Origin: Lentisphaerota bacterium
GTDB lineage: Bacteria > Verrucomicrobiota > Lentisphaeria > Victivallales > Victivallaceae
Direction of reading: 5' to 3'
DNA length: 64,000 bases
Assembly (NCBI GenBank): GCA_015061545.1
Contig: SUWJ01000006.1
Coordinates: 1 to 64,000 of the forward strand
This document shows positions 42,081 to 57,388 of this stretch, one piece after another. The stretch's first letter is position 1, and each line of letters begins with the position of its first letter. The translations under genes and the position numbers were made by a program. The notes under the pieces are model-generated. The model did not search any database and was not told where the DNA came from. It saw only the letters and a list, made by a program, of their open reading frames with translations.

Positions 42081-43370
42081 ATGTTAAAAATTATTTCCAT
42101 ACTTTTAACCGCCGCTGCCGGATTGACTTTTTTGCACGGACAGAATATCCCCGGCAGCAAATATGCCGGATTACTGGATAAACGCCCGGTAAAAATTCCC
42201 GCCAAGCGCCCTGCCCGCACAGGAGAAATGCGGGGGATCTGGGTGGCCACCATTTTTAACATGGATTATCAGCGACCGAAAAATGTGGAGGAATTCAAGA
42301 AATTTTTCAGCAATATGTGCGTCAATCTGAAAAATCACGGCTTCAACGCCATATTTTTTCAGGTACGGCCCGCTAATGACGCATTTTATAAATCAAAACT
42401 CAATCCGTGGTCCCAATTTCTTTCCGGGCGCGAAGGCGTACCGCTACCAGGAGCAAAAAACTTTGATCCGCTGGCATTTATGATCGCCGAAGCCGGGAAA
42501 CACAATTTGGAGTTCCACGCCTGGCTGAATCCGTATCGGGTGACAGGATCGACTAAATTAAGCAAACAAAAATATCTCAACACCTTATCTGCAGGTAATT
42601 TTGCCCGTCAACACCCCGAATTGGTGTTGGAATCGCCCCTGCCGAAGGGTATGCGCCGTCTGGTGCTGAATCCGGGCGAAAAGAAAGCGCGGGATTTTAT
42701 CATAGCAAGCGTTATGGAAATCGTGCAAAATTACAATATCGCCAGCATCCACTTTGACGATTATTTTTACCCCGATAATGCCCCCGCTTCGGTGGATGCG
42801 GCAACTTACAGGCGGAATAATCCGCGAAAACTCCCGCTGGCGGAATGGCGGCGGAACAATGTGACCATGCTAATGAAGGATATTCACGACCAAATTACCG
42901 CCCACAATCGCCGCACAGGGCGGCGGGTACGCTTCGGGATCAGTCCTTTCGGTATATGGCGCAATCGGAAAAATTCACCAAATGGCTCCCTGACTGACGG
43001 CTTGGAGAGTTATTCCGCCCATTACGCTGATACCCGGCTCTGGGTCAGGCAGAATATGATCGACTACATCGTGCCGCAGATCTACTGGCAGTTCGGCCAC
43101 AACAGCGCCGCCTATGCAGCAGTAGCTGACTGGTGGAACGATACAGTGAAAAACAGCCGCGTAGACCTTTATATCGGTCAGGCGGCGTATAAGCTGGGCG
43201 ATCCCGGGTGGAACATCAACGAACTCTACTACCAGATGCTTTACAACCGCAATCTGCCCAATGTACGCGGCTCAATAATTTTCTCCTATCGCAGCATGGC
43301 TGCACCTGCCAACCGCACTATGCAGCAAGGCGGCCGCGATATGCTTAAATCGTTGTGGAAAAAACGCTAA
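42081..43370 (+). CDS. secreted GHL10-type (YngK/DUF187-like) glycoside hydrolase
   Basis: GEMRGIWVATIFNMDYQRP, FNAIFFQVRPANDAFYKS, FHAWLNPYRV, SIHFDDYFYPD, DYIVPQIYWQFGH. Confidence 0.9.
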   Translation: MLKIISILLTAAAGLTFLHGQNIPGSKYAGLLDKRPVKIPAKRPARTGEMRGIWVATIFNMDYQRPKNVEEFKKFFSNMCVNLKNHGFNAIFFQVRPANDAFYKSKLNPWSQFLSGREGVPLPGAKNFDPLAFMIAEAGKHNLEFHAWLNPYRVTGSTKLSKQKYLNTLSAGNFARQHPELVLESPLPKGMRRLVLNPGEKKARDFIIASVMEIVQNYNIASIHFDDYFYPDNAPASVDAATYRRNNPRKLPLAEWRRNNVTMLMKDIHDQITAHNRRTGRRVRFGISPFGIWRNRKNSPNGSLTDGLESYSAHYADTRLWVRQNMIDYIVPQIYWQFGHNSAAYAAVADWWNDTVKNSRVDLYIGQAAYKLGDPGWNINELYYQMLYNRNLPNVRGSIIFSYRSMAAPANRTMQQGGRDMLKSLWKKR

Positions 43371-43473: not shown

Positions 43474-44430
43474 ATGAAAAAATTGTGCGCGATTCTGCTT
43501 TTGCTGATAACGTGGGGGACATGGGCAACAGCAGCCGGCCATGTTTACAGCGACGATGATATCGGCAGAATCATCTACTGCCGCCCCAATAATTTTCTGG
43601 TAATTGATGAAATCAGGCAAACTCATCTGCTCTGTCACACTTACGGCAAAACCAGCAAATACAAGGTCAAATTTGCTGACAGTATACCGACACGTTTCTA
43701 CGAATCAAGCCCTTCTTTGATGATAACCCAGTACGCTTTGCAGGATTATACTGCCAAGCGGCAGAACGGCTTTGCCTCGATGCTGGCAAAGATTTGCGGC
43801 GACCCCAACGGCAGAAGCGAGAAAATCGCCTTGCAGGAAGCAGCGATCAGGAGTTTCGATCAGGCAATGCTCACCATAAAAAAATCCCCTGATTACGCCG
43901 GATATCCTGAAGATCAGCTGGACGCATATATTGCCCAGCTTGACTCCGACCTGCCCGATAAGCAAGTTCAAGCAGCCACAGTGGCGGGCGACTGGCTGCT
44001 GGCAACGGCGCTTTTCCACCGTTTCAGAGAATATATGCTCGCATTGCCGAACAAGCTGAACGCCGCCGAGCTGAAGGCGGTTGTTCAGGAAAAACTCAGC
44101 GAACGGGAAAAGAGTCTGCTGGAGGATTTTTCCAATTATATGAAGCTGGACAACACCCGCCGCAAACTCTTCAGAAAACACTATCCCAACGCCAAAGGTT
44201 TGTGGACCATGTCGCCCCCGGCCACTTATGCGGGACTTTGGAAATTTTACCTTAAAAGCATGAATGCGTTTTTTACCCTGGACGAACTCTCCAAAGTTAC
44301 CGAACCGCAGGATTGGGGCAGCGCCATGCTGGATGTCTTGCTGATGTGCGAAGGTACTCCCGAAGCGGCGGTGCTGGAAAAGGAATTTGACGCGGAAATA
44401 AGAAAACTGGAAAGTTCATCCTCCAGATAA
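43474..44430 (+). CDS. secreted alpha-helical protein of unknown function, probable first gene of the GTPase/stator/vWA block
   Basis: signal peptide MKKLCAILLLLITWGTWATAAG; 25 nt before the next gene. Confidence 0.65.
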   Translation: MKKLCAILLLLITWGTWATAAGHVYSDDDIGRIIYCRPNNFLVIDEIRQTHLLCHTYGKTSKYKVKFADSIPTRFYESSPSLMITQYALQDYTAKRQNGFASMLAKICGDPNGRSEKIALQEAAIRSFDQAMLTIKKSPDYAGYPEDQLDAYIAQLDSDLPDKQVQAATVAGDWLLATALFHRFREYMLALPNKLNAAELKAVVQEKLSEREKSLLEDFSNYMKLDNTRRKLFRKHYPNAKGLWTMSPPATYAGLWKFYLKSMNAFFTLDELSKVTEPQDWGSAMLDVLLMCEGTPEAAVLEKEFDAEIRKLESSSSR

Positions 44431-44455
44431 AATAAAATATTGCAGAGATTTTATA

Positions 44456-46471
44456 ATGAAGAATTTTTACATTTTTACCGATGGCAATGTGCGCGGCCCT
44501 TTCCCGCCCGAAACAGTCGCTATGATGCTGGCGGACGGGCGGATCGATATGCAGACCTTGCTCTGTTCGGGCAAAGGTCAGCCCTGGATCAAGGCTGCGG
44601 ATGTAGGAGTCGTTATCGAAGAGCTGGAAAAAATCAAAAATACCGCCCAAGCGCCCAAGCCGACTCAAGTGCTTTATCCGACCAATGCCAATCACCCTGC
44701 TGCGGGAAATCCCCCGTCACCGGAAAGCGTTGCGGAATCCGCCAATACAGCTGCATCTACTCAGTCCCGCAGAGAGGTGGTATTCTACTGTCCCCATTGT
44801 TCGCAAAAGTATTCAGGCAGCGAAAGCTGGCTGGGGCGCGATATAAATTGTATCCGCTGCAGCAAAAGTTTTACTGCCATCGAAAATGCCCCCACCAAGG
44901 CGGATAGAACACCAAGTCAAAGTTCAGCTGCTCAAGCAGCCCAGTCAGTACCCAATGCCAACAGTACAGAAAATAAAGTCAGTTCTGCAACATCGGCGGG
45001 TAAAAACAGTATGGAATTTTTCGATTGGGAAAATTCCACAGGCGAACTTATCTGCCCCCATTGCTGGGTCAAATTCAACAGCGACCAGCTGCTTTACATT
45101 GCCAGCCACCCGGCATTGACCGGGGATCCTGTACTCGGCTCCATGGCGCAAAAGCGTTTTCTGCCGACGATTTTCAATGCCCGCGGTCAGGCGCTGGACG
45201 AAATGTCCCAAGCCACCAACGATCTGGCGTGTCCGCGCTGTCACTTGAAGATCCCGGCTACGATCATCGACGAAAAATCCTGCTATTTTTCGCTGGTTGG
45301 TGCGTCAGGAACGGGTAAATCCTATTATCTGGCAACGCTGCTAAATCAGGTGCGCAAAAACATGAGCAGCGATTTTGCCTGTACGCTGTTGGATGTGGAT
45401 CCGGAAATGAACGCCCTGCTGGATGGCTACGAAGAAACACTGTTCCGCAGTACCCGCCGCAGCGAAGTGGCGGTGCTGCCAAAAACTCAGGCGGCAGGCG
45501 GCGGTCACGTTACGCAGGTAACGCTGAACAATATAAGCGTGAATCTGCCCAAACCGTTTATATACGAGCTTAAACACTTTATAAGCAATCAGACAATAAA
45601 AGACTGCAATATAGTTTTTTACGATAACTCAGGCGAACTTTTTATGCCCGGAGCCGACAACCTTGCCAATCCGGGCACCCGTCATCTGGCGTGTTCAGAC
45701 GGCATAATCTTTCTCTTTGACCCGCTGAACGATGCGGTAATGCGGACTCAATGCGCTCAGGAAGAACCGCAGCTGCAAAGCGATAAGTTTGTTTACGACC
45801 AGCTTAAACTGCTTTCGGAAATGATCAGCCGTATCCGCCGCCACCGCAATTTGAATGTGGAAGAAAAGTGCCAGATCCCGCTGGTGATCGGCGTTTGCAA
45901 ACACGATGCGTGGCAGCATTTGCTCGAACGCGATATCAGCCAACTGCCCGTGCGGCAGAGCTGCGAAGGCGAACTTGCCATGCAATGGGTGCAGAATACA
46001 ATTATGGATGTATCTTTTGAACTGCGGGAATTACTGTTCAAATATGCGCCCGCGCTGGTAAATACGGCGGAAAGTTTCTTTGAAAAGGTCATCTTTATCC
46101 CGTTCAGCAACTTTGGCTGCTTCTCCTCGCCTGCCGATGCCGACGGCGGCTTGGGGGTGATTCCGGAAAAGATCAATCCTTTATGGGTGACCGAGCCGTT
46201 GATGGCATTGCTGGCGGAAAATTCGCTTATTGCCCAAGCGCCGCTGCCGGAAGGCAATATTTCTCCTGCCAATGCTCAAATCGCGGAAGATTTCATTATT
46301 CTGAAACATCCTGAAAACGGGCGGCTGATCCGTCTGCCGTGGAACTATTCCGGGGTGGTAATTACAGTCAACGGCAAACAGTACAAACTGCCGCATCACC
46401 CCAGAAGCAATCAGCAAATTCAGGATAAAGTCACTATGCTGGGCAAAATGAACAACGATCTCTGGAACTGA
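44456..46471 (+). CDS. GYF_2(DUF4339)-zinc ribbon-P-loop GTPase (Double-GTPase 2-like)
   Basis: N-term FYIFTDGNVRGPFPPETVAMMLADGRIDMQTLLCS; CPHCSQKYSG...CIRCSKSF; Walker A GASGTGKS; Walker B-like NIVFYDNSGE; G4-like GVCKHDAW. Confidence 0.8.
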   Translation: MKNFYIFTDGNVRGPFPPETVAMMLADGRIDMQTLLCSGKGQPWIKAADVGVVIEELEKIKNTAQAPKPTQVLYPTNANHPAAGNPPSPESVAESANTAASTQSRREVVFYCPHCSQKYSGSESWLGRDINCIRCSKSFTAIENAPTKADRTPSQSSAAQAAQSVPNANSTENKVSSATSAGKNSMEFFDWENSTGELICPHCWVKFNSDQLLYIASHPALTGDPVLGSMAQKRFLPTIFNARGQALDEMSQATNDLACPRCHLKIPATIIDEKSCYFSLVGASGTGKSYYLATLLNQVRKNMSSDFACTLLDVDPEMNALLDGYEETLFRSTRRSEVAVLPKTQAAGGGHVTQVTLNNISVNLPKPFIYELKHFISNQTIKDCNIVFYDNSGELFMPGADNLANPGTRHLACSDGIIFLFDPLNDAVMRTQCAQEEPQLQSDKFVYDQLKLLSEMISRIRRHRNLNVEEKCQIPLVIGVCKHDAWQHLLERDISQLPVRQSCEGELAMQWVQNTIMDVSFELRELLFKYAPALVNTAESFFEKVIFIPFSNFGCFSSPADADGGLGVIPEKINPLWVTEPLMALLAENSLIAQAPLPEGNISPANAQIAEDFIILKHPENGRLIRLPWNYSGVVITVNGKQYKLPHHPRSNQQIQDKVTMLGKMNNDLWN

Positions 46472-46496
46472 CAAGCCATAAAAATCGGGCGGAACA

Positions 46497-48653
46497 ATGT
46501 TTGAACTTATTTACACTTCAGCCCCGCGCGGACTGCTGCCGGGACGATCAGGATTCAGTACCGTGGCAATGACCAAAGGTATGCCGCCGAATTTGATCGT
46601 ACCGCTGGAAAATCTCAGCGGATATAATTTTACCTACCATAATGGTCTGCTGCCCGATGAGTTGAACCCGATTTGCTGTTATTATATAAAACTGCGTTAC
46701 GGCAACTGTCTTTATCCGATTGCAGGCAGGGTGGCGCCAAACGGATTGGATTACACCCGCCGCAATAACAAAATTGCCCATCACATATTGCTGGAAGATA
46801 CAGCTGAAATCAAAAGTTTCTGCGGCGGCGCAGCAGACTGTTTCTTGCAGTCGGGCAATATGTTCGTCCAACATTTCGATCAGGAGCCTTATGAACTGCC
46901 TTATCGGATCATTCCTGAAGGTACGCCGCCTGTAACATTGCAGAGCAATACATGGGCAAGACTGGCAGGAGATGCCGGTGCAGCGGCATTGCTTGCCAGA
47001 AAATTCCAACAGGATAAAAAATCTGTATTCTATGTCGTATATCCGGCAGGAACTGCGGTGGAAGATCTGTTGAATATGGCTGCCGAAATCTGCCGTTTAC
47101 TGGACGATCAAGCCGAAAAAAGTGATTTTACATTCAGTACATATTTTCAGGAAGACAGTGCATCAAGCGAATGTTTTCTGCGCTTCATACCGGATTTTTC
47201 GCCACTACTGAACAATTTGCGCAGATTCCATGGCAATATACTCATCGAGCTTGACGGCAAATTTCAGCTGCCTGCCGAGTGGGAAGACGATCCGCTTTGC
47301 CAGCTGGCGCGCAGCGGTGGTTTCTGGCAGGAAGAGGAAGAAGAGGCCATCATGCTTGATGCGCCTGAAATAACCGATACCGCTGCAGCTGCCGTACCGC
47401 CCAAGCCGCTATATATACCTGAATCCCAGCAGAAAATGCGGCTGAGAATGAAAAAATCGTCCGATACTGCAGCCGATGGAAATCAGCAGCCCGATAAGCC
47501 GGAGTCTGACGGAGGCTCGGCGGTGCTTCTCTCTTGCGAATACACCAACAGCCGAAGCAAACTTATATTTATGGGGTTGGCAGGATTGGTAATATTGCTG
47601 ATTCTGGGAGTGATACTCTATTTTTTCAGTATTCCTGATACCATCGAGCCGACACCGTCGGGCAAAACGCCCCCGTCTTCAGTAAAAATACCGGCAGAAA
47701 CTGATCCGAAAGTTGAAAAAACAACTCAGCCCAAGCCGACAACAGTTCCGGCAGGAAAAACCGGCGGCAACGCTGCGGCAGTTAAAGTTTCCAAGCAGCC
47801 GCCAGTTCAAACTGCAACGCAGTCAAAACAAGTTCCTGCCGCGCAGAAAAAGCAGTCAGCTCCGTCCAGGACGGCGGATAAAGGTTCGATTGCAATTGCA
47901 GATAACGGGCAGCTGCGCTATACGCCGCCAGAAAGTATCAAAAATCAACTTGACAAATTCGATATCCGCATCGGCAAGCTGGGTATGGGCGATTTCAACT
48001 CATTGTCGCTGTACACCGCCAACTGGAACAAGCTGACAGATGAATGGATATCGATAAATAAAAACGTTGCCAATTTGCAGAAAAAACTTGAAAAACAGAA
48101 AGTTACCGACGAAAAATGCAAATTTTCCGAAGTTCAGCAGCAGTATCAGGAATTACTGGAACGGGCAGATGATATTGATGACGTGGAAGATGCCGAAGAA
48201 GCGCTGAGAATTTTCAAAAATAATATCACAACTTTTATGGAATCGTTGTTCACCACCGCCAGCTCGACCGGCGATGACAGTTCGATAATGAAAAAGATTC
48301 TGCAAAAATTTCCTGACGATATTCTGGAAGAAGTGGACGACAGCAAAGATTATCTCAAAGTTGCAGCCCAAAACTGGCGTAAACGCAAAGAAGAGCTGAG
48401 AAATTTTCACACTCTAAAAAAAAATTGGGAAGACGCCCGGAAAAGGTTGGATAAACAAAATAATGCCTTGGGGAATTGTCAGCAAAAGATGCTGCACACC
48501 GCCGAGCGGATCGCGCCTGAACTTAAAAGTGCTATAATAAGTCTGACCCCATTGTCGCCGCCGAAAAAAATCAATAGCGACGGAATCAAAACAATCATTG
48601 GGAAAATGGCGGAATATATAACGATAAAAAATGTGGAAAACGTATCAAAATAA
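46497..48653 (+). CDS. GAP1-N2-like (GTPase-associated) domain - TM - Pro/Lys-rich linker - coiled-coil protein
   Basis: FELIYTSAPRGLLPGRSGFSTVAMTKGMP...LENLSGYNF and NKIAHHILL; TM LIFMGLAGLVILLILGVILYFF. Confidence 0.75.
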   Translation: MFELIYTSAPRGLLPGRSGFSTVAMTKGMPPNLIVPLENLSGYNFTYHNGLLPDELNPICCYYIKLRYGNCLYPIAGRVAPNGLDYTRRNNKIAHHILLEDTAEIKSFCGGAADCFLQSGNMFVQHFDQEPYELPYRIIPEGTPPVTLQSNTWARLAGDAGAAALLARKFQQDKKSVFYVVYPAGTAVEDLLNMAAEICRLLDDQAEKSDFTFSTYFQEDSASSECFLRFIPDFSPLLNNLRRFHGNILIELDGKFQLPAEWEDDPLCQLARSGGFWQEEEEEAIMLDAPEITDTAAAAVPPKPLYIPESQQKMRLRMKKSSDTAADGNQQPDKPESDGGSAVLLSCEYTNSRSKLIFMGLAGLVILLILGVILYFFSIPDTIEPTPSGKTPPSSVKIPAETDPKVEKTTQPKPTTVPAGKTGGNAAAVKVSKQPPVQTATQSKQVPAAQKKQSAPSRTADKGSIAIADNGQLRYTPPESIKNQLDKFDIRIGKLGMGDFNSLSLYTANWNKLTDEWISINKNVANLQKKLEKQKVTDEKCKFSEVQQQYQELLERADDIDDVEDAEEALRIFKNNITTFMESLFTTASSTGDDSSIMKKILQKFPDDILEEVDDSKDYLKVAAQNWRKRKEELRNFHTLKKNWEDARKRLDKQNNALGNCQQKMLHTAERIAPELKSAIISLTPLSPPKKINSDGIKTIIGKMAEYITIKNVENVSK

Positions 48654-48666
48654 GTAAGCAGTTGTT

Positions 48667-51600
48667 ATGAGCAAGATAGAAAATACCGTACAGGAGATGA
48701 TCCGATATTTATCGGGCAATGATTTGAGCGACACACCGCAGATGCGTCAGAACTTTGCCATATACAGCGCCGCCTGCCGCGAAGTAAACGACCTGCTGCG
48801 CGAGTGCCGCAATATGTTCGATAAAGGTTTGTATATTGATGCGCAGCGTTTTTGTTCCGACCTTAAGCCTTCGCTGTCGGAGCGGGTAAATATGCTGCTT
48901 TTGAGCCGCGAATTGCAGGAGCGCTACCGCAAGGTATGCTCGCTTTACAATTATGAATCTGCTGAACTGCCTGATGATACTATTCTGAAACGTCTGCAGG
49001 CAGCCAGCTCGGATATGACTCTGAACAGTCTGGTGCTGCATTGGCGGCAGATCGCCCGCGGTCACGATACTCAGGCAAAAATAAATCTGCTGCGGGAAAT
49101 TGTGGATAAATCGCCGCAGAATCCTCAAATCTGGATCAACAACCTGCGCACCGTGGAACAGGAATACCTGGCAGAACAACGCAACAATCTGGAAAAAGCC
49201 ATTGCCCTTGCTGATACCGAAAAGATTGTGGCAATATATAATACGCTTATTGACAAACGCCTCATAAGCCGTTTGCCTGAATATGAACTGAGCAAATACC
49301 AACCCGAAATAATTGCCGCCAATCAAAAACTGCTCCGTCAGCAGCTGAAAAATAAAAGCGACGAAATCTTTGCCGCTTACAGCAAGTTGGATCACGCTTC
49401 CTGTGCCGCCCATCTGCAGGAATACGATCAGCTGACCGCCAGCGAATACTTTGTCAGCGATGCCGATATGGAGAAGGCAATCGCCGAAGTCAGAACTTTT
49501 CTGCAGACTCATCAGCACGATATGCAGATCCAAGCGGAATTCAACCAGAAGAAAGCTGAACTGCTGCAGGCGCTGGATCAGCGCAAAAGTTATACCGTAG
49601 TGGAAAATATGTGGGAAGCGCTGCGGCAGATGGATATGCCGCTGGAAAAGAATTTGAGCAGCCGGGTGGAAAATCTGCATCAGGAGTATCTGGCGGAAAA
49701 CAACCGCAAACATATCCGCAAATGTATTCTGGGGGTGTTGTCGGTCTTGCTGCTGGCTGCAGGAGCGGCGGCAATATTTCATTTTGCCCAATCATATCAG
49801 AGCTACCGCCATCACCGCGCAGCCATGCAGGAACTGTTGCAGCAAAAGTGTTACAGCGAAGTGATCGCCCATTACAATAAAATCAACGAGCATACTCCCA
49901 GCTTACTCAAATACGGTCAACTGACGGCGCTCAAGCTGGAAGCGGAACACTATCTGCAGGAACAGGCAAGTCAAACCAGTCAGCTGGATGATCTCTGCCG
50001 ACGGGGCAATGCGGAATTGGCAAAAGCGGAACCGTCGCTGGAAACGCTGAACTATATCATTAAGGAACTCAGCACTCAAAAAAAGGATTTTATTTCCTCC
50101 GAATCCGCAGGCAGGATACGCAATCTGGAGCTTGCCGTCCGCAAATTTGAATTGGATAAACAGCAGAAAGCAGATCAGGCTTTCCAAAAGAAATTTGCCG
50201 ATACTGTAAAGCAGCTGGATAAACTTATCAACAGTTTCAAACCCAACGGCAAATACGATGAGCAAACCGTAAAACAGGCGCTGACACTGCTCAAAACCTC
50301 CGAAGCGCTGCAAAAACAATCCGGCAATATCTCAACTGAACTCTATCAAAGCAGCAAAGCTATTCTGGCAGAAAAGAATAAACAGCTCGCTTTACATATG
50401 CAAAGTGCCGAACGGGGCAGTCAGCTGCTGAAAAAATTGCAGAAGCCTGCCAATGCGGACGAATATTGCCGTGCATTGGAACAAATGCCATTATTTCTGC
50501 CGCAAATGGCTGCAGGCAGCTGGCAGGAAGCGGTAAGCAATGTAACAGAAATCCGCCAGTTGTCCGCCGGCGCCAGTTTGCCCGCCGTCAGCAACAGCCA
50601 CAGCGATTTTATTGATGCACTTAACCAGCTGCATATCACCGATAAGGATCTGCCGATGGTACAGGATGCATTAAAGCAAATGCCGCTGCCGGGAGCTGCC
50701 GAAAGTATTGATATGCAAATAAAGAAATTCGACCGCGATTTCTCAGGATTTTACAACTGTTACGAAATATCGCTCAGCGATGCAGAGGGCAGACGCTTCA
50801 ACTTTTATGCGCGGGAAGAACCGCCGCCCGCCGAACGCTCCATGTCCACGCGCAATCCCAAAAGTATCTCACTCAAACTGGAAACCGGCAACAATGCTGC
50901 CGACGGCATGATAACGTTCCGCATACGGCGCAGCAATGATAAATATTTTATTATGCCAGTGCTGCCGGAAAATACACCGCTGCAGCTCCCTGGTCGCTTT
51001 ACCAAAGTAAACAATTTCAAGCTCACCCGTCCCGAAATTCCCCAAGCGCAGCACTACACTTTTCAGCAGAAAGCCTTGAAATCGCTCAAAGCAGCTCAAA
51101 CGCTTGCCGAAAAGGAAAGCGTGCTGATCGTTTTGCTTAAAGATTTGAAAAGTCAGGATGATATGAATATTTTTGCCCGGGCGGCGCTGACCAGAGAATT
51201 GTTGAATATGCTGCCGGCGCTCTCCGGATTTTACACCGAAACGGTCAACAAATACACTATTACTCTGGATAGTGTTGCCGGGTCGCTCTACGGCAGTTTC
51301 ATGCAGCCGGAACTGGAACAGCTCAAGCCCGATCAAACCCGGGCGCTGAAAAAGTTTTTCAATGAGTTCGACCCGGCCCGTATGGAACAGTATTGCCAAA
51401 TATCGCGTCAACTCCATCGTTCGGCGCTCTCCCGCGGACTCTATCCCTGCGGAATAATTCAACAAAATGACCGCCAAAACTGGCAGGTTCATTACTTTGA
51501 CGCACAAAACAAACCCGATGAATTGTGGTTTTATGATTGGAACAGCAACAAATTCAGTATATTGCTCCAAAGCTCGCTTCAGGAAAATATCATAAAAAAC

Positions 51601-51756
51601 AGTCAGGGACTTAAATTCAAAAACGGCATGATCTTTTTTGCCCCTGCCGATGGCATAAGTACGGCAAAAATGACTGCTGAAGCGGTGGAACTCTATAAAA
51701 AAATGTTTTCAGCCCATCCGTTGTGGCCCGATTCGTGGCCGTTGAACCGCAGGTAA
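48667..51756 (+). CDS. 1029-aa single-TM coiled-coil-rich protein of unknown function
   Basis: TM CILGVLSVLLLAAGAAAIFHFA; long helical segments; C-terminal globular domain; no family recognised. Confidence 0.75.
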   Translation: MSKIENTVQEMIRYLSGNDLSDTPQMRQNFAIYSAACREVNDLLRECRNMFDKGLYIDAQRFCSDLKPSLSERVNMLLLSRELQERYRKVCSLYNYESAELPDDTILKRLQAASSDMTLNSLVLHWRQIARGHDTQAKINLLREIVDKSPQNPQIWINNLRTVEQEYLAEQRNNLEKAIALADTEKIVAIYNTLIDKRLISRLPEYELSKYQPEIIAANQKLLRQQLKNKSDEIFAAYSKLDHASCAAHLQEYDQLTASEYFVSDADMEKAIAEVRTFLQTHQHDMQIQAEFNQKKAELLQALDQRKSYTVVENMWEALRQMDMPLEKNLSSRVENLHQEYLAENNRKHIRKCILGVLSVLLLAAGAAAIFHFAQSYQSYRHHRAAMQELLQQKCYSEVIAHYNKINEHTPSLLKYGQLTALKLEAEHYLQEQASQTSQLDDLCRRGNAELAKAEPSLETLNYIIKELSTQKKDFISSESAGRIRNLELAVRKFELDKQQKADQAFQKKFADTVKQLDKLINSFKPNGKYDEQTVKQALTLLKTSEALQKQSGNISTELYQSSKAILAEKNKQLALHMQSAERGSQLLKKLQKPANADEYCRALEQMPLFLPQMAAGSWQEAVSNVTEIRQLSAGASLPAVSNSHSDFIDALNQLHITDKDLPMVQDALKQMPLPGAAESIDMQIKKFDRDFSGFYNCYEISLSDAEGRRFNFYAREEPPPAERSMSTRNPKSISLKLETGNNAADGMITFRIRRSNDKYFIMPVLPENTPLQLPGRFTKVNNFKLTRPEIPQAQHYTFQQKALKSLKAAQTLAEKESVLIVLLKDLKSQDDMNIFARAALTRELLNMLPALSGFYTETVNKYTITLDSVAGSLYGSFMQPELEQLKPDQTRALKKFFNEFDPARMEQYCQISRQLHRSALSRGLYPCGIIQQNDRQNWQVHYFDAQNKPDELWFYDWNSNKFSILLQSSLQENIIKNSQGLKFKNGMIFFAPADGISTAKMTAEAVELYKKMFSAHPLWPDSWPLNRR

Positions 51757-51763
51757 GAGTACT

Positions 51764-52723
51764 ATGCAAGACCGATTTTTCATCCGCGACACAGATAATA
51801 TAATAACCGGGCCGTTTACCCGGCAGCATTTGCTGGAGCAATTCAACTCTGCCAAACTGTCGGTAAACGAAGTTGTGCTTTCCGACGATAAGTCAACATG
51901 GCTTCCGCCCGAAACACTGTTATCGGAATTGATTCCTGAAAATCCGGATAATGTTGCAGAATTCACCCCGGAGCCGCCGCCCGCGGCAACCGATAACTCC
52001 GACGCCGAAGCCGATGCCGGGGCGGAAGCCCCCCAGCCGCTTGAAAATGCGGATACGCAAGCAGAAAAAGAACCTGTTGCCGAAAATATTTGTCATGCTG
52101 ACCGCACATTCAAACGGCTGGCAGGCGATACCGTGGCTGTACTCTTTAACAGTCAGAGTTATTTCTACCGTCTGGCGGTCAAAGGCCCCAGCGCCATGCT
52201 GACTGCCGGTTTGCTGGCAATATCCGGCAGCGTAATGATAACGCTGCTGGGCGGAGTGCTTTTTGCCGGAAGGTACGAAACAGGAACGGCATTATTCTTC
52301 ATCCGCAGTTTTGTTCAATGTATTGCTTCAGGGATATTGCTGTGGCTGTTCAATCTTATGATAAATGAGTTCAGCAAATCAGGCAAAAAGCAGAAATATT
52401 ATCAGATGGAAACCGATTTTCTATCTGCCATGCTTGGCAATATGAATATCTCGCTGCTGGTGATGATATTTAATGCCACACTTTTTATGTGGAACAGAAA
52501 TTTGTATCAGATGAACCGGATTCAGAGCATTCTGCTGGCGGCAGCAGTGCTGTTTATGGCAATGTACGTTCTGGGCAACACGTTTCTGCTGCTGCGGATC
52601 AATCTGCGCAAAAATGCGCAGCTGCGGCGCTTTACGTCGGCGGTGCTGGCGGCAGCAGAAATGTGGGCAATAGTGCTGTTATCTTACGCGCTTCTGCACC
52701 CGATTTACCGTAATATATTATAA
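51764..52723 (+). CDS. GYF_2(DUF4339)-multi-TM membrane protein
   Basis: N-term DRFFIRDTDNIITGPFTRQHLLEQFNSAKLSVNEVVLSDDKSTWLP; about four TM segments at the C-terminus. Confidence 0.75.
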   Translation: MQDRFFIRDTDNIITGPFTRQHLLEQFNSAKLSVNEVVLSDDKSTWLPPETLLSELIPENPDNVAEFTPEPPPAATDNSDAEADAGAEAPQPLENADTQAEKEPVAENICHADRTFKRLAGDTVAVLFNSQSYFYRLAVKGPSAMLTAGLLAISGSVMITLLGGVLFAGRYETGTALFFIRSFVQCIASGILLWLFNLMINEFSKSGKKQKYYQMETDFLSAMLGNMNISLLVMIFNATLFMWNRNLYQMNRIQSILLAAAVLFMAMYVLGNTFLLLRINLRKNAQLRRFTSAVLAAAEMWAIVLLSYALLHPIYRNIL

Positions 52724-52744
52724 ACAATAAAAAGGTTTGCAATC

Positions 52745-53602
52745 ATGAAACTCTCTTATGCTAAAAACGATATTGAACGGATGTGCGGCTTCCGCAGCAA
52801 AAAGTTCACCATGGTCAACTATGTTTTTACTTTTATTCTGGGACTGCTTTTGACCTTGATCATTTATCTGCTGCTGCTGCCGTTTTACGGCAAAGGTCTG
52901 GAGTGGATCGATATGTTTTTTCACGGCGGAGCCAAAGATCGGTCAAGTATTCCCTATTACACAGTATTTCTCAGCTGCTGGTCAATGGCAATATTGTTTA
53001 TCAAACTCTGCAAATTGAAAAATCAGCGCAAAGCCTTTGAGTTGTCGATTCTGCCGGAAGATCCGAACTTTGTACTCTCGCCCCGCACCGCACGGGAAAT
53101 ACTTGACCGGATCTATGAATCGGTGGATCAACCCGGCTGCTATGTGCTGCTGGACAGAATCGACCTGGCGCTGGGCAATTTGAAAAATCTGGGCAATGTC
53201 AACGCGGTTTCGGAGTGTTTGAACTGTCAGGCGGGTAATGATGAAGGATATCTTGCCAGCAGCTACACCATTCTTAAAGGCTTTATCTGGGCAATTCCGG
53301 TACTGGGTTTTATCGGGACTGTGGTGGGGCTGTCAGAAGCAGTCGGCGGCTTCGGCAATGTAGTGTCGCAAGGAGCGGATATTGCGGAGCTGAAAACTGC
53401 TCTTTCGGGTGTTACCGGCGGGCTTGCCATCGCTTTTGAAACCACGCTTATCGCGCTGGTGCTGGCGTTGATCGTGCAGCTGACCGCCAAGTTTGTCCTC
53501 AGCGAAGAGGAAGCGTTTCTGGATGAATGTGCCGCTTACTGCAACCGCAACATTGTCGCCAAGATGAAAAATATTTATCTGGCTAACAGCGAAAATATTT
53601 GA
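52745..53602 (+). CDS. MotA/TolQ/ExbB-family proton channel subunit
   Basis: AIPVLGFIGTVVGLSEAVGGFGN...ELKTALSGVTGGLAIAFETTLIALVLALIVQL. Confidence 0.92.
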   Translation: MKLSYAKNDIERMCGFRSKKFTMVNYVFTFILGLLLTLIIYLLLLPFYGKGLEWIDMFFHGGAKDRSSIPYYTVFLSCWSMAILFIKLCKLKNQRKAFELSILPEDPNFVLSPRTAREILDRIYESVDQPGCYVLLDRIDLALGNLKNLGNVNAVSECLNCQAGNDEGYLASSYTILKGFIWAIPVLGFIGTVVGLSEAVGGFGNVVSQGADIAELKTALSGVTGGLAIAFETTLIALVLALIVQLTAKFVLSEEEAFLDECAAYCNRNIVAKMKNIYLANSENI

Positions 53603-53603
53603 T

Positions 53604-54449
53604 ATGCCCCGCAGCAACGAAGACGAATCACCGATTTCCCTGTTCAGTTTTCAGGATATAATCACCTCCATCACCGGGATCATGTTTCTGGTGGTGCTGC
53701 TGCTGGTGATGATAATGCTGAGCAGTTTTGAAAAAAACACTTCCGATCCAGTCGCGGTGGAAACTTGTCGTTTGACGCAGGAATTATCTGAACTCAAGAA
53801 AAAGCTGCAATCGCTGCAAAACAATCAAACGGAGCTGGCAGAGCAACTTGCCAAATTAAAAAAACTTACCCCGGCAGAACTTGCCGCCAGAAAAATGGAG
53901 CTGCAGCAGGCAATTCACAGCCGGACACTTGAGCTGAAAAACCTTATACAGCAGTTGAAAATCCAGCAGGATAAACTCTCACTGATTCAACAAACATTGG
54001 AAAATCAGCAGAAACAATTGACCTTTCAGCAGGAAGAAAGCATTAAATTCAAGGCGCGTCAAGTTGAAATCAAACGGGAAATCGCTCAACTTGAAAAAAT
54101 ACTCCGCCAGCAGGAAAAACTTATGCAGTTTACGATTCAAAGTTCCAGCAGTAAATCGCCAATTTTGCTGGAGTTGAGCAAAAGCGGCATCCAACTGTTC
54201 TATCCAGATAAAAATCAACTGCACGATATGCGCAGCAGCAAAGGCGATTTTGCTGAATCACAATCGCAATTTGAATCTTTTATTGCCCCAATACCGCCTG
54301 AACAATATTACTTTTGTATAACTGTTAAACCGGAAGCCTTCCGCTATGCAGCAAACGTGGCTGCGCTTTTGCAGAAAAATCTCTTCGAGCGAGGCATTGA
54401 ACTGCTGCCCAACGATCAGATCAGTATTATGGGAGGCAACACGCCATGA
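53604..54449 (+). CDS. MotB/ExbD-like subunit 1 (single N-terminal TM, coiled coil, C-terminal periplasmic domain)
   Basis: FQDIITSITGIMFLVVLLLVMIML has Asp just before/within the TM, as in ExbD/TolR/MotB; long Gln-rich coiled coil. Confidence 0.65.
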   Translation: MPRSNEDESPISLFSFQDIITSITGIMFLVVLLLVMIMLSSFEKNTSDPVAVETCRLTQELSELKKKLQSLQNNQTELAEQLAKLKKLTPAELAARKMELQQAIHSRTLELKNLIQQLKIQQDKLSLIQQTLENQQKQLTFQQEESIKFKARQVEIKREIAQLEKILRQQEKLMQFTIQSSSSKSPILLELSKSGIQLFYPDKNQLHDMRSSKGDFAESQSQFESFIAPIPPEQYYFCITVKPEAFRYAANVAALLQKNLFERGIELLPNDQISIMGGNTP

Positions 54450-55390
54450 GCAAAAGAAGTTATCGTAAATCCGAAGATGAGTCCAGCCTGGAACTGCTGC
54501 TGGATACCATGTGCAACACCTTTGGCGGGGTTATGTTTATTGCCATTTCCATATTTGTTATAATCTCGGGCATGACACAGATCGACAATGCCTTGGAGCA
54601 GCAGAACACCGATCCGGAAGAACTGCGGCGGAACATTACCGAACTGCAAAGTGTGCTGCAACAGGCAATGCACCAGCTGGATATCCAAACTGAGGAGTTG
54701 AAAATACGGCAAAAGGAATCCGACTCACCGCTGATGCAGGAAACCGTTCAGCTGGAACAACTGCTTAAAGAATTGGATTTGAAAAAACAATCCACCCTTC
54801 TGGCGGTGACTGGTGCCGACAAAAGTCTGCAGCAGGCAACTGCACAGCAGTTGAAATTGCAGGAGCAGCTGAAAGCACTTGCCGCCGAAAACTCTGCAGA
54901 AGAAATTCAGCTTATGGAACTTACCCAAAAGTTGAAAAATTTGCAGTATCAGCAAATTCCCGCTCAGCAAATGGTCTTCAAGGTGATGCAGAGCAGCGAA
55001 AAACATCCGTTTTTTATCGTCATGCAAAACGGCAAGGTCTGGCCGGTCGGGCCGTGGAAAACGCCCGATGGGGACACGCCCGATGCAGCTGTAATAACGG
55101 AGAAAATCGCGCAGGATAATATCCAAATCTACCGCTTCAAGGTAAAACCTGACACGGGAATCGAAGTTTTGGCGGGCGATGACTTATCAAGTCAGTTTGT
55201 CAAATTGCTGAAAAAGATCCCCGCCGATCGGGTACCTAAATTTTTTATTCCGCCTGCCAGCGCTGAAACGGCGTTCAAAATGCGGGAAATATTGAAAAAA
55301 CAGAATATTCAGCATGGTTTGACGCTGGCACCGGATGACAGCACACCGCTGAGTTATCAGTATTATTCGGAAGTTAAATATGAATATTGA
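54446..55390 (+). CDS. MotB/ExbD-like subunit 2 (single N-terminal TM, coiled coil, C-terminal periplasmic domain)
   Basis: LELLLDTMCNTFGGVMFIAISIFVIIS; coiled coil; ATGA overlap with the preceding gene. Confidence 0.65.
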   Translation: MSKRSYRKSEDESSLELLLDTMCNTFGGVMFIAISIFVIISGMTQIDNALEQQNTDPEELRRNITELQSVLQQAMHQLDIQTEELKIRQKESDSPLMQETVQLEQLLKELDLKKQSTLLAVTGADKSLQQATAQQLKLQEQLKALAAENSAEEIQLMELTQKLKNLQYQQIPAQQMVFKVMQSSEKHPFFIVMQNGKVWPVGPWKTPDGDTPDAAVITEKIAQDNIQIYRFKVKPDTGIEVLAGDDLSSQFVKLLKKIPADRVPKFFIPPASAETAFKMREILKKQNIQHGLTLAPDDSTPLSYQYYSEVKYEY

Positions 55391-56405
55391 ACCTGACAAA
55401 CATTGGTTTCGTCCATTCGGATACTTGATTATTTGCCTTTTCCTGCTCCTGATCTGGGCTGGAATCAGCGAAGGCTGCCGTAAAAATGATTCTCTGCCCG
55501 GCGCAGGCATGGTCAGCACCGGCGGCAGCTCAGTCGATAAAAAAGGCAGCGGCAACAGCGATTCCGGCGATGGTCCGGGCGCCGGGATTGATGGCAAGGG
55601 CGATGGTTCCGGCGGTAAATCCGCCGCTCAATCAGGCACGGTAAAAGTTGCGGCAAACACCAACGCGCCCCCGACTGCTGAAAGTAATTCATCCTCAATG
55701 GCAGCTCAATCATCTGCCAATACCAATGGTACTGCGCAAACAGTAAAGCTGCAGGCGATTGAATCGCTGACTTCGCCCCGGCAGCAAAGCGCCTCCAATG
55801 ATTTGCCGCCGGCGGATTACAACAGCAACAGCGCCGGTCGCAAAGGGTTTTACGGCATAGCCTCGCACAGCAAAGGCAGAGTATTGTTTATCATTGATAC
55901 TTCAGGTTCCATGGCAGGACCTTCGGGGGAATTTCCCGGCAAGAGCCGTATTGATGTATTGAAAATGGAACTGAAAAAGTATATCTTCGGCGGTCAGAAA
56001 CTCACCCCAGCCAGCTACAAACGCGGCGGAAGTTTTGTAATAGCCGCCTTCAACTCCTCCACTACATTCTTTCCCGATAATGGTTCGTGCCGCAACAGCA
56101 ATCACAGCGATATGAAAAAGACGGAAGAATTTATCGACAGTTTGCAAGCCAACGGCGGAACTATGATGCGCGATGCCTGGCAGCGCTCCTTTGAGTTGAT
56201 AAAAAAGCAGAAAATAGATACGGTTTTCTTTCTGACCGATGGCGAGGCGGGCGATGGGTTCAGCAGTAAATGGCTGTTGGATGAGCTGAAAGAAATTTCA
56301 CATACAAAACCTGTGGTGCATTGTATAAGACTGGGTGGAAGAAAAAATAAAGATATGGAAATGATAGCAAAAAAGCGCAATGGCAAATTCATTGCGCTTC
56401 CGTAA
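55380..56405 (+). CDS. membrane-anchored von Willebrand factor type A (vWA) domain protein
   Basis: N-term TM, Gly/Ser-rich linker, MIDAS motif FIIDTSGSMAG, NGGTMMRDAWQRS, FFLTDGEAGDG. Confidence 0.9.
   Translation: MNIEPDKHWFRPFGYLIICLFLLLIWAGISEGCRKNDSLPGAGMVSTGGSSVDKKGSGNSDSGDGPGAGIDGKGDGSGGKSAAQSGTVKVAANTNAPPTAESNSSSMAAQSSANTNGTAQTVKLQAIESLTSPRQQSASNDLPPADYNSNSAGRKGFYGIASHSKGRVLFIIDTSGSMAGPSGEFPGKSRIDVLKMELKKYIFGGQKLTPASYKRGGSFVIAAFNSSTTFFPDNGSCRNSNHSDMKKTEEFIDSLQANGGTMMRDAWQRSFELIKKQKIDTVFFLTDGEAGDGFSSKWLLDELKEISHTKPVVHCIRLGGRKNKDMEMIAKKRNGKFIALP
56373..56399 (-). terminator. minus-strand terminator for the 56438-57388 gene, lying inside the vWA coding sequence
   Basis: perfect 10-bp arms AAGCGCAATG/CATTGCGCTT; minus-strand exit is TTTTTTGC. 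Confidence 0.65.
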
Positions 56406-56437: not shown

Positions 56438-57388
56438 TCAAAGCATCCCCAGCACCGCCAGCGATGCCAGACACAGCAGCAGCGCCACCACCTGCATCGG
56501 TTTGCGCTTTTCTTTAAGAAATACCAGCGAATAAATTTCAAACGCCACGATCGCCGCCGCCGTCATCACCTGATTGGCAATGGCTCCCGCATTGGCTTCC
56601 ACCATAGCATCGATCCCGGGATAGAACAATAAATAGCAGGAAATACCGCTTACCCCGACGATCAGCAGCCCATAGATCCATGTGTATTTATTGCCGATCA
56701 ATCTTACGGTATCGATCCGATTTTGTTTATTTACAATAAGACTGATCAAAAACCCCAACAGCAGCCCGCTGAAATAACAGAGCGTGCGCCATACGCTGGA
56801 AACTGTATCCACCCCGTCAATATTGCTGGGTATATATTGCAGACTCTGGCATATACAAGTTGCCCCGAATGCCAGAATAGTCATCAGCAGCCAATGCCCT
56901 TTAGCGGCATTATCCGCAGTAATCGCAAAGATCACCAGCGAACTTAATACCAGCAGCATCGACAACCCGAACGCCAGCGTGAGCGGTTCCCTGAAGCAGA
57001 TGATCCCGATAGCAAAAGGCACAATAAAGCCCGACTGAACAATACTCCAGATGATCCCGTTAGGTCCGAACTTCATCGCCTTACCCATAAAATATGCCTG
57101 AGAAAAGTTAAAAATCCCGGCAATAACCACCAACGCCATAATAATTATTACGTTTATATTGGAAAAGTCAGGAATCGCAGGCGCCACCGCCGAATTTAAA
57201 ACAACCCCATAGCTTTCCAAAAGCAGCAACACCCCGATACAGCAGGCGCTGAAAATCACCGCCAGAACTGCACTTGCTGCCACAATCAGTCCATAATTAA
57301 GTTTACGCTGCGGAACGACTCCCGCCACATAGCCCCATACCGTCCAGCTTACACCGTCCAGAATCATGGCAATAATACCAAAAAGCAT
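56438..57388 (-). CDS. DMT/EamA- or GRP/RhaT-like multi-TM permease
   Basis: about ten TM helices; WTVWGYVAGVVPQRKLNYG; GIICFREPLTLAFGLSMLLVLSSLVIF. Confidence 0.7.
   Translation of the reverse strand: MLFGIIAMILDGVSWTVWGYVAGVVPQRKLNYGLIVAASAVLAVIFSACCIGVLLLLESYGVVLNSAVAPAIPDFSNINVIIIMALVVIAGIFNFSQAYFMGKAMKFGPNGIIWSIVQSGFIVPFAIGIICFREPLTLAFGLSMLLVLSSLVIFAITADNAAKGHWLLMTILAFGATCICQSLQYIPSNIDGVDTVSSVWRTLCYFSGLLLGFLISLIVNKQNRIDTVRLIGNKYTWIYGLLIVGVSGISCYLLFYPGIDAMVEANAGAIANQVMTAAAIVAFEIYSLVFLKEKRKPMQVVALLLCLASLAVLGML

Follow-up and report, generated by a model that had tools for sequence, protein, structure and literature searches.

A conserved gene block joining a GTPase and a GAP1-N2 protein to a MotA/TolQ/ExbB-type channel: a candidate ion-driven motor of the bacterial envelope

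The window analysed here is a 64,000-nucleotide (nt) stretch of a Lentisphaerota bacterium (assembly GCA_015061545.1, contig SUWJ01000006.1, positions 1 to 64,000). The open reading frame (ORF) listing of the window shows nine co-directional ORFs on the + strand at 43474-56405, which encode a GTPase, a GAP1-N2 protein, a channel protein of the MotA/TolQ/ExbB type (hereafter the stator), two TolR-like proteins and four further products. An earlier note, made from the letters alone, had described nine tightly spaced genes and read them as a candidate energised envelope machine. The spacing was confirmed: in order, neighbouring genes are separated by 25, 25, 13, 7, 21, 1, -4 and -11 nt. We find that a core of this block is a conserved unit, and interpret it below as a putative motor. 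The nine genes, with product lengths in amino acids (aa) and predicted transmembrane (TM) segments, are as follows.

43474..44430, + strand: gene 1, 318 aa, secreted, N-terminal signal sequence (hydrophobic 4-22), accessory
44456..46471, + strand: gene 2, 671 aa, cytosolic, GYF domain, two CxxC pairs and a DO-GTPase2-like P-loop GTPase domain
46497..48653, + strand: gene 3, 718 aa, GAP1-N2 (3-135) and GAP1-M (171-253), one TM segment (356-374), variable helical C-terminus
48667..51756, + strand: gene 4, 1029 aa, modelled cytosolic alpha-solenoid (1-325), TM segment (353-371), periplasmic helical and beta part of about 650 aa
51764..52723, + strand: gene 5, 319 aa, GYF-like N-terminal domain followed by four TM helices
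52745..53602, + strand: gene 6, 285 aa, MotA/TolQ/ExbB channel with four predicted TM helices; T192 and T234
53604..54449, + strand: gene 7, 281 aa, TolR-like putative axle subunit A, F16-Q17-D18, coiled coil 49-171, C-terminal domain 185-267
54446..55390, + strand: gene 8, 314 aa, TolR-like putative axle subunit B, LLLDxxCNxFG with D20 at the TM entry, homologue of gene 7
55380..56405, + strand: gene 9, 341 aa, TM anchor, Gly/Ser-rich linker and vWA domain (DTSGS and TDG motifs), accessory

Hydropathy assigns one TM segment each to the products of genes 3, 4, 7, 8 and 9 and four each to those of genes 5 and 6, a signal sequence to that of gene 1, and no TM segment to that of gene 2. A Pfam scan of the nine proteins gave nothing reliable for genes 1, 4, 5, 7 and 8.

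A scan of genome contigs with a stator alignment detected at least 555 relatives of gene 6, and the loci of the best 80 were surveyed. These 80 belong to Lentisphaerota, including the isolate Victivallis vadensis DSM 14823, to Planctomycetota, to Verrucomicrobiota and to a few Desulfobacterota such as Desulfamplus. Among them the order GTPase, GAP1-N2 protein, membrane-anchored helical protein of about 1000 aa, GYF protein, TolQ-like protein and two TolR-like proteins recurs in Lentisphaerota, Planctomycetota and Verrucomicrobiota and is rare elsewhere. GAP1 and gene 4 are present in 45 of the 47 loci with at least 8.5 kb of upstream sequence; within this set, 38 loci have the GTPase gene no more than 10 kb away in the same orientation, while it is cut at the locus edge in six more and sits on the opposite strand in one. 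Two TolR-like genes are found in 62 of the 65 loci with at least 2.5 kb of downstream sequence, and the median spacing of neighbouring genes across loci is 2 nt. Seven core genes are constant across loci and form a conserved unit. Gene 9 is accessory, since a vWA gene lies near the stator in only 27/65 loci, and its inclusion in the machine by the earlier note was not upheld, as it does not belong to the core. Gene 1 is likewise accessory; its family has only 17 members in all loci searched and occurs in a subset of Lentisphaerota loci, usually directly 5' of the GTPase gene.

Co-occurrence was assessed in two phylum samples. In 196 genomes of the window's phylum (Verrucomicrobiota) the stator subfamily is bimodal, with 16 genomes scoring at least 196 bits and the next best 133 bits; identity of the close relatives ranges from 39 to 69%. 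GAP1-N2 and the GTPase are both present in all 16 stator genomes, and in 13 of them stator, GAP1-N2 and GTPase lie on one contig within about 12 kb. In two of the remaining three, a gene 4-GYF-stator-TolR-TolR cassette and the GTPase are located on different contigs or contig regions; the third lies on a fragmentary contig. By chance, stator and GAP1-N2 would be expected together in 2.3 genomes (hypergeometric p = 2.5e-16). Among 200 genomes of Planctomycetota, the phylum of Botrimarina, a close stator was detected in eight, a strong GAP1-N2 match in 13 and both in six, compared with 0.5 expected (hypergeometric p = 5.5e-7); in five of these six the two lie within 7 kb. As both p values are this low and gene order is kept between phyla, the association is not due to chance. 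The co-occurrence search that the earlier note had suggested is therefore strongly positive (GAP1-N2 in 16/16 and 6/8 stator genomes), and its coupling of a GTPase and GAP1-N2 to a stator and two TolR-like proteins stands as a recurrent unit with conserved catalytic and ion-path residues. The stator tree mostly tracks phylum, with Verrucomicrobiota in a single clade; Desulfamplus is among the exceptions. Members of the close stator subfamily occur almost exclusively at loci that also carry the triad of GTPase, GAP1 and gene 4.

The gene 6 product matches MotA_ExbB with 34.9 bits (cut-off 22.9). Its T192 and T234 are invariant in homologues and align with T148 and T181 of E. coli ExbB, respectively, two residues that line the ExbB pore. 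In the gene 7 family the FQD motif at the TM entry is invariant (D18 in 64/64 homologues), and D20 of gene 8 is nearly invariant (at least 90% of homologues). Homology between the gene 7 and gene 8 families extends along their length, with D18 and D20 aligned, and is retained by the end domains after removal of the coiled coils (96.4%). The gene 7 model (pLDDT 89.5) consists of a coiled coil and a beta-beta-beta-alpha-beta-alpha-beta end domain, for which E. coli TolR (5by4) was the highest-probability solved match in Foldseek (probability 0.97, with a weak E = 0.065 and TMt 0.55). ExbD/TolR membership of genes 7 and 8 by sequence was rejected, as no match was found and hits in the PDB were coiled-coil noise; it is their anatomy and modelled fold that suggest kinship to TolR. 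The assignment of genes 6 to 8 as a predicted MotA/TolQ/ExbB-type motor with two paired TolR-like subunits is well supported.

The gene 2 product carries G1 GASGTGKS at 282, G3 DNSG at 390 and G4 KxD at 482-484, and the P-loop (G, G-K), the D and G of DxxG and the KxD are invariant in 71/71 homologues. Its Pfam matches, GYF_2 (22.5 bits) and DO-GTPase2 (19.0 bits), are both under cut-off (27 for DO-GTPase2). The CxxC pairs at 112/132 and 200/259 probably form two zinc ribbons. The gene 3 product matches GAP1-N2 (61.7 bits) and GAP1-M (28.5 bits), both above the cut-off of 24. Gene 4, the third member of the conserved triad, matches no Pfam family; its model (pLDDT 87) shows a helical solenoid, one TM segment and a long periplasmic part, and a fold search returned only generic helical or TPR proteins with TM-scores too low for kinship and no close solved relative. 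The GYF domain of gene 5 had no Pfam match in the window protein. Conservation peaks in the cytosolic parts of genes 3 and 4 and in the TM segment of genes 7 and 8, and in all four it falls in the periplasm. This concentration in cytosolic and TM parts points to a constant engine with variable arms. In Desulfamplus (L122:1723-3633) the GTPase has an N-terminal FHA domain in addition to GYF, and other genes intervene between the stator and the TolR-like genes.

Distant stator-TolR-TolR cassettes stand alone in many genomes. The window's own genome encodes such a distant stator paralogue (G000:C48:54259-54972; L144:9215-11747) with its own TolR-like pair and no GTPase, GAP1 or gene 4 nearby. Since the triad occurs stator-free and the cassettes occur triad-free, the window brings together two modules that also exist separately. 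In three loci (L037:10258-15168, L046 and L048) the genes after a stator-free triad encode a PilM/FtsA-like actin and two one-TM proteins, PilO- and PilP/GspC-like by eye; an AAA ATPase is also present in L037 and L048. The PilM/PilO/PilP-like set looks like another trans-envelope module that shares this control core. On the Anabaena cylindrica plasmid pANACY.03 (L183, 8845-11424) a distant stator homologue lies directly after a type III-B CRISPR cluster, near viperin, and is followed by two hypothetical proteins.

The vWA domain of gene 9 was recognised by VWA_3 (30.2 bits) and VWA_2 (28.7 bits; cut-off 27). Clusters of the order TPR - tolQ - tolR - tolR - vWA force transducer have been reported from Planctomycetes-Verrucomicrobia-Chlamydiae (PVC) bacteria (Mol Biol Evol 2025, PMC12204202), and the vWA protein described there carries a TonB/TolA-like SHLS histidine motif in its TM helix. 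The corresponding S-x3-H is absent from the TM helix of the window vWA and of the 27 strong vWA homologues scanned; a match in one locus (L067) lies after the TM helix. Gene 9 was hence rejected as a force transducer of this SHLS type. An S-x3-H TM motif like that of the published family does occur at another locus, in a separate vWA gene (L101:17508-18596) that lies on the opposite strand within a few kb of the unit. L068, L072 and L073 encode the vWA protein in two pieces, one gene for an anchored Gly/Ser-rich linker and one for a secreted vWA domain with its own signal sequence.

As far as the accessible part of PMC12204202 describes them, its clusters share with the window a TolQ-like gene, two different TolR-like genes, a TPR-like protein, a TM-anchored vWA protein and the PVC host, whereas no GTPase, GAP1 or GYF is reported there. 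These clusters and the present loci may overlap in part. The other half of the block resembles the GAP1-N2/DO-GTPase systems, for which a computational study (Kaur et al. 2020, eLife, PMC7159879) predicted a role in biological conflict. As in their GAP1-N2 systems, a GAP1-N2 plus GAP1-M protein, with a C-terminal TM segment in both cases, is found beside a P-loop GTPase with zinc ribbons (probable in the window). The FNIII-repeat component of those systems has its place taken by gene 4, which models as helical with beta parts, and Pfam gave no FNIII match in any of the nine window proteins. A further difference is that the GTPase of the window scores under the DO-GTPase2 cut-off. A planctomycete GYF protein fused to a TM-rich region, described by Kaur et al., adds to the likeness; TolQ, ExbB and MotA are named nowhere in their main text. 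At one locus (L112:4907-6745) an HSP70 gene lies directly 3' of the second TolR-like gene, which recalls the HSP70 theme of GAP1-N2 systems.

The closest working precedent is offered by the Agl-Glt gliding machine and Nfs complex of Myxococcus xanthus, where the GTPase MglA acts on a motor; its effectors include AglR and GltJ (PMC12288465), AglRQS comprises one TolQ and two TolR proteins (PMC3169522), and CglB has a vWA adhesin domain (PMC13104615). One TolQ with two TolR, TPR proteins and a vWA protein find counterparts in the window. In contrast to genes 7 and 8, however, AglQ and AglS match Pfam ExbD/TolR, no GAP1-N2 has been described for Agl-Glt, and its gene clusters are scattered rather than joined in one operon. 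By Pfam, on which this comparison with the Myxococcus proteins is based, the window GTPase is nearest to DO-GTPase2. The window machine would work like MglA/AglRQS/Glt by a likeness of kind, probably not of descent.

We propose, with a probability of roughly 0.55, that the products of this locus build an ion-driven motor complex of 5:2 stoichiometry in the envelope of PVC bacteria, under the control of the GTPase. In this model gene 6 would form a pentameric channel around a hetero-dimeric axle made of one copy each of the gene 7 and gene 8 products, with D18 and D20 at the TM entry facing the pore threonines T192 and T234, so that ion flow turns or strokes the axle. The axle coiled coils, the TolR-type end domains and the periplasmic portions of the gene 3 and gene 4 products would transmit the force to the cell wall, the outer membrane or the surface. 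On the cytosolic side, the DO-GTPase2-like protein and its GAP1-N2 partner may assemble the motor or gate the stator according to GTP state, docking via the GYF proteins and via gene 4, whose helical N-terminus is conserved. The vWA protein could serve as an optional terminal part that binds ligands or mediates adhesion. Several observations weigh against this model. About half of the GTPase-GAP1 loci are stator-free, so the GTPase does not need the stator; two Planctomycetota genomes carry the stator without GAP1-N2, and one genome has the GTPase half and the stator half at separate loci. DO-GTPase2 stays below the Pfam cut-off of 27 in gene 2 (19.0) as well as in its relatives (19.3-26.2). 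Moreover, genes 7 and 8 have no ExbD/TolR match in Pfam, and hhalign comparisons with E. coli ExbD and TolR were not significant.

The locus could instead be an anti-phage or conflict system in which the GTPase-GAP1 pair recognises an invader and imposes a threshold, with the stator acting as membrane effector through an ion leak or a mechanical signal. Such a mode has been proposed for the GAP1-N2 systems predicted in PMC7159879 and is seen in Zorya. It would also fit the patchy presence of the unit (16/196 genomes), the fast divergence of the periplasmic parts, the weak ZorB/ZorA profile matches and the stator homologue beside the CRISPR cluster and viperin on the Anabaena plasmid. However, the defence-island check raised in the earlier note showed flanks made up mostly of metabolic genes and not enriched in defence families relative to random regions: PADLOC found no excess in 100 flanking over 100 random-region proteins, a rough comparison in which many models match one protein. 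Furthermore, the plasmid and phage collections searched, in which PVC records are few, yielded no copy of the GTPase. The stator tree agrees for the most part with phylum, and the seven core genes are constant, with no swapped effectors. Nor is the Zorya-like logic entertained in the note indicated. The window does share with ZorAB a MotA/ExbB-family channel with a one-TM coiled-coil partner, but PADLOC matches are weak, genes 7 and 8 have no OmpA-type peptidoglycan domain, and gene 6 (just 285 aa) does not have the long ZorA tail; no PADLOC match to ZorC/ZorD, ZorE or ZorF/ZorG occurs among the nine genes, and two distinct axle subunits and a GTPase core set the window apart. Zorya membership was rejected on these grounds, and we consider a defence role in general unlikely, though it deserves more weight than the two readings that follow.

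The pore threonines, the TM-entry aspartate and a TolR-type end domain, the last as predicted by the gene 7 model, are features also of Tol-Pal and Ton. A maintenance or uptake machine of that kind, for which the putative TolR-type fold of gene 7 would speak, would have the stator drive an outer-membrane or cell-wall task with the vWA protein as force transducer and GTPase-GAP1 regulating assembly only. We regard this as rather improbable: fewer than half of the loci have a vWA gene, the TM-helix histidine motif given in PMC12204202 does not occur in the vWA of the window or in its relatives, and Pfam detected no TonB/TolA C-terminal domain in the window proteins. Long coiled coils, paired different axle proteins, the absence of TolA/TonB and a channel subunit with four instead of three TM helices likewise distinguish the window from Tol-Pal and Ton. 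That the triad is found without the stator, and stator-TolR-TolR without the triad, even as a paralogue in the same genome, might suggest an operon of convenience whose co-transcribed members act separately. This is very hard to reconcile with order and tight spacing kept across three phyla, with the co-occurrence values in both samples and with the near confinement of the close stator subfamily to triad loci.

A broader extension of the motor model is possible but more doubtful than the model itself. The locus might represent a rotary ion motor of a class of its own in PVC bacteria, whose axle would be a hetero-dimer and whose gating GTPase/GAP1 switch is encoded in the same operon, and the triad, pluggable into this motor or into a PilM/PilO/PilP-like assembly, might be a general control unit for trans-envelope machines. 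The earlier note knew of no characterised system with the full set. This holds in so far as a search that covered mostly open-access articles gave no paper joining the GTPase/GAP1-N2 and stator halves, so that such a paper may exist elsewhere; each half is known separately, from PMC7159879 and from PMC12204202, beyond which no report on GTPase, ExbB/ExbD and vWA together came up, and it is their combination that appears new. The model would join two uncharacterised gene sets, the GTPase/GAP1-N2 'conflict' systems and the paired-TolR ion motors of PVC bacteria, in one testable machine and would give GAP1-N2 systems a concrete physical output. With Victivallis vadensis DSM 14823, a cultured organism is at hand for asking whether an ion-driven motor of the envelope is controlled by GTP state in bacteria other than Myxococcus; Botrimarina colliarenosi Pla108 carries the unit as well.

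Within the nine-gene block, predicted internal promoters and terminators occur at the same rate as in shuffled sequence and are thus uninformative. Upstream, a further co-directional ORF ends at 43370, and downstream the block is followed at 56438 by a gene in the opposite direction.

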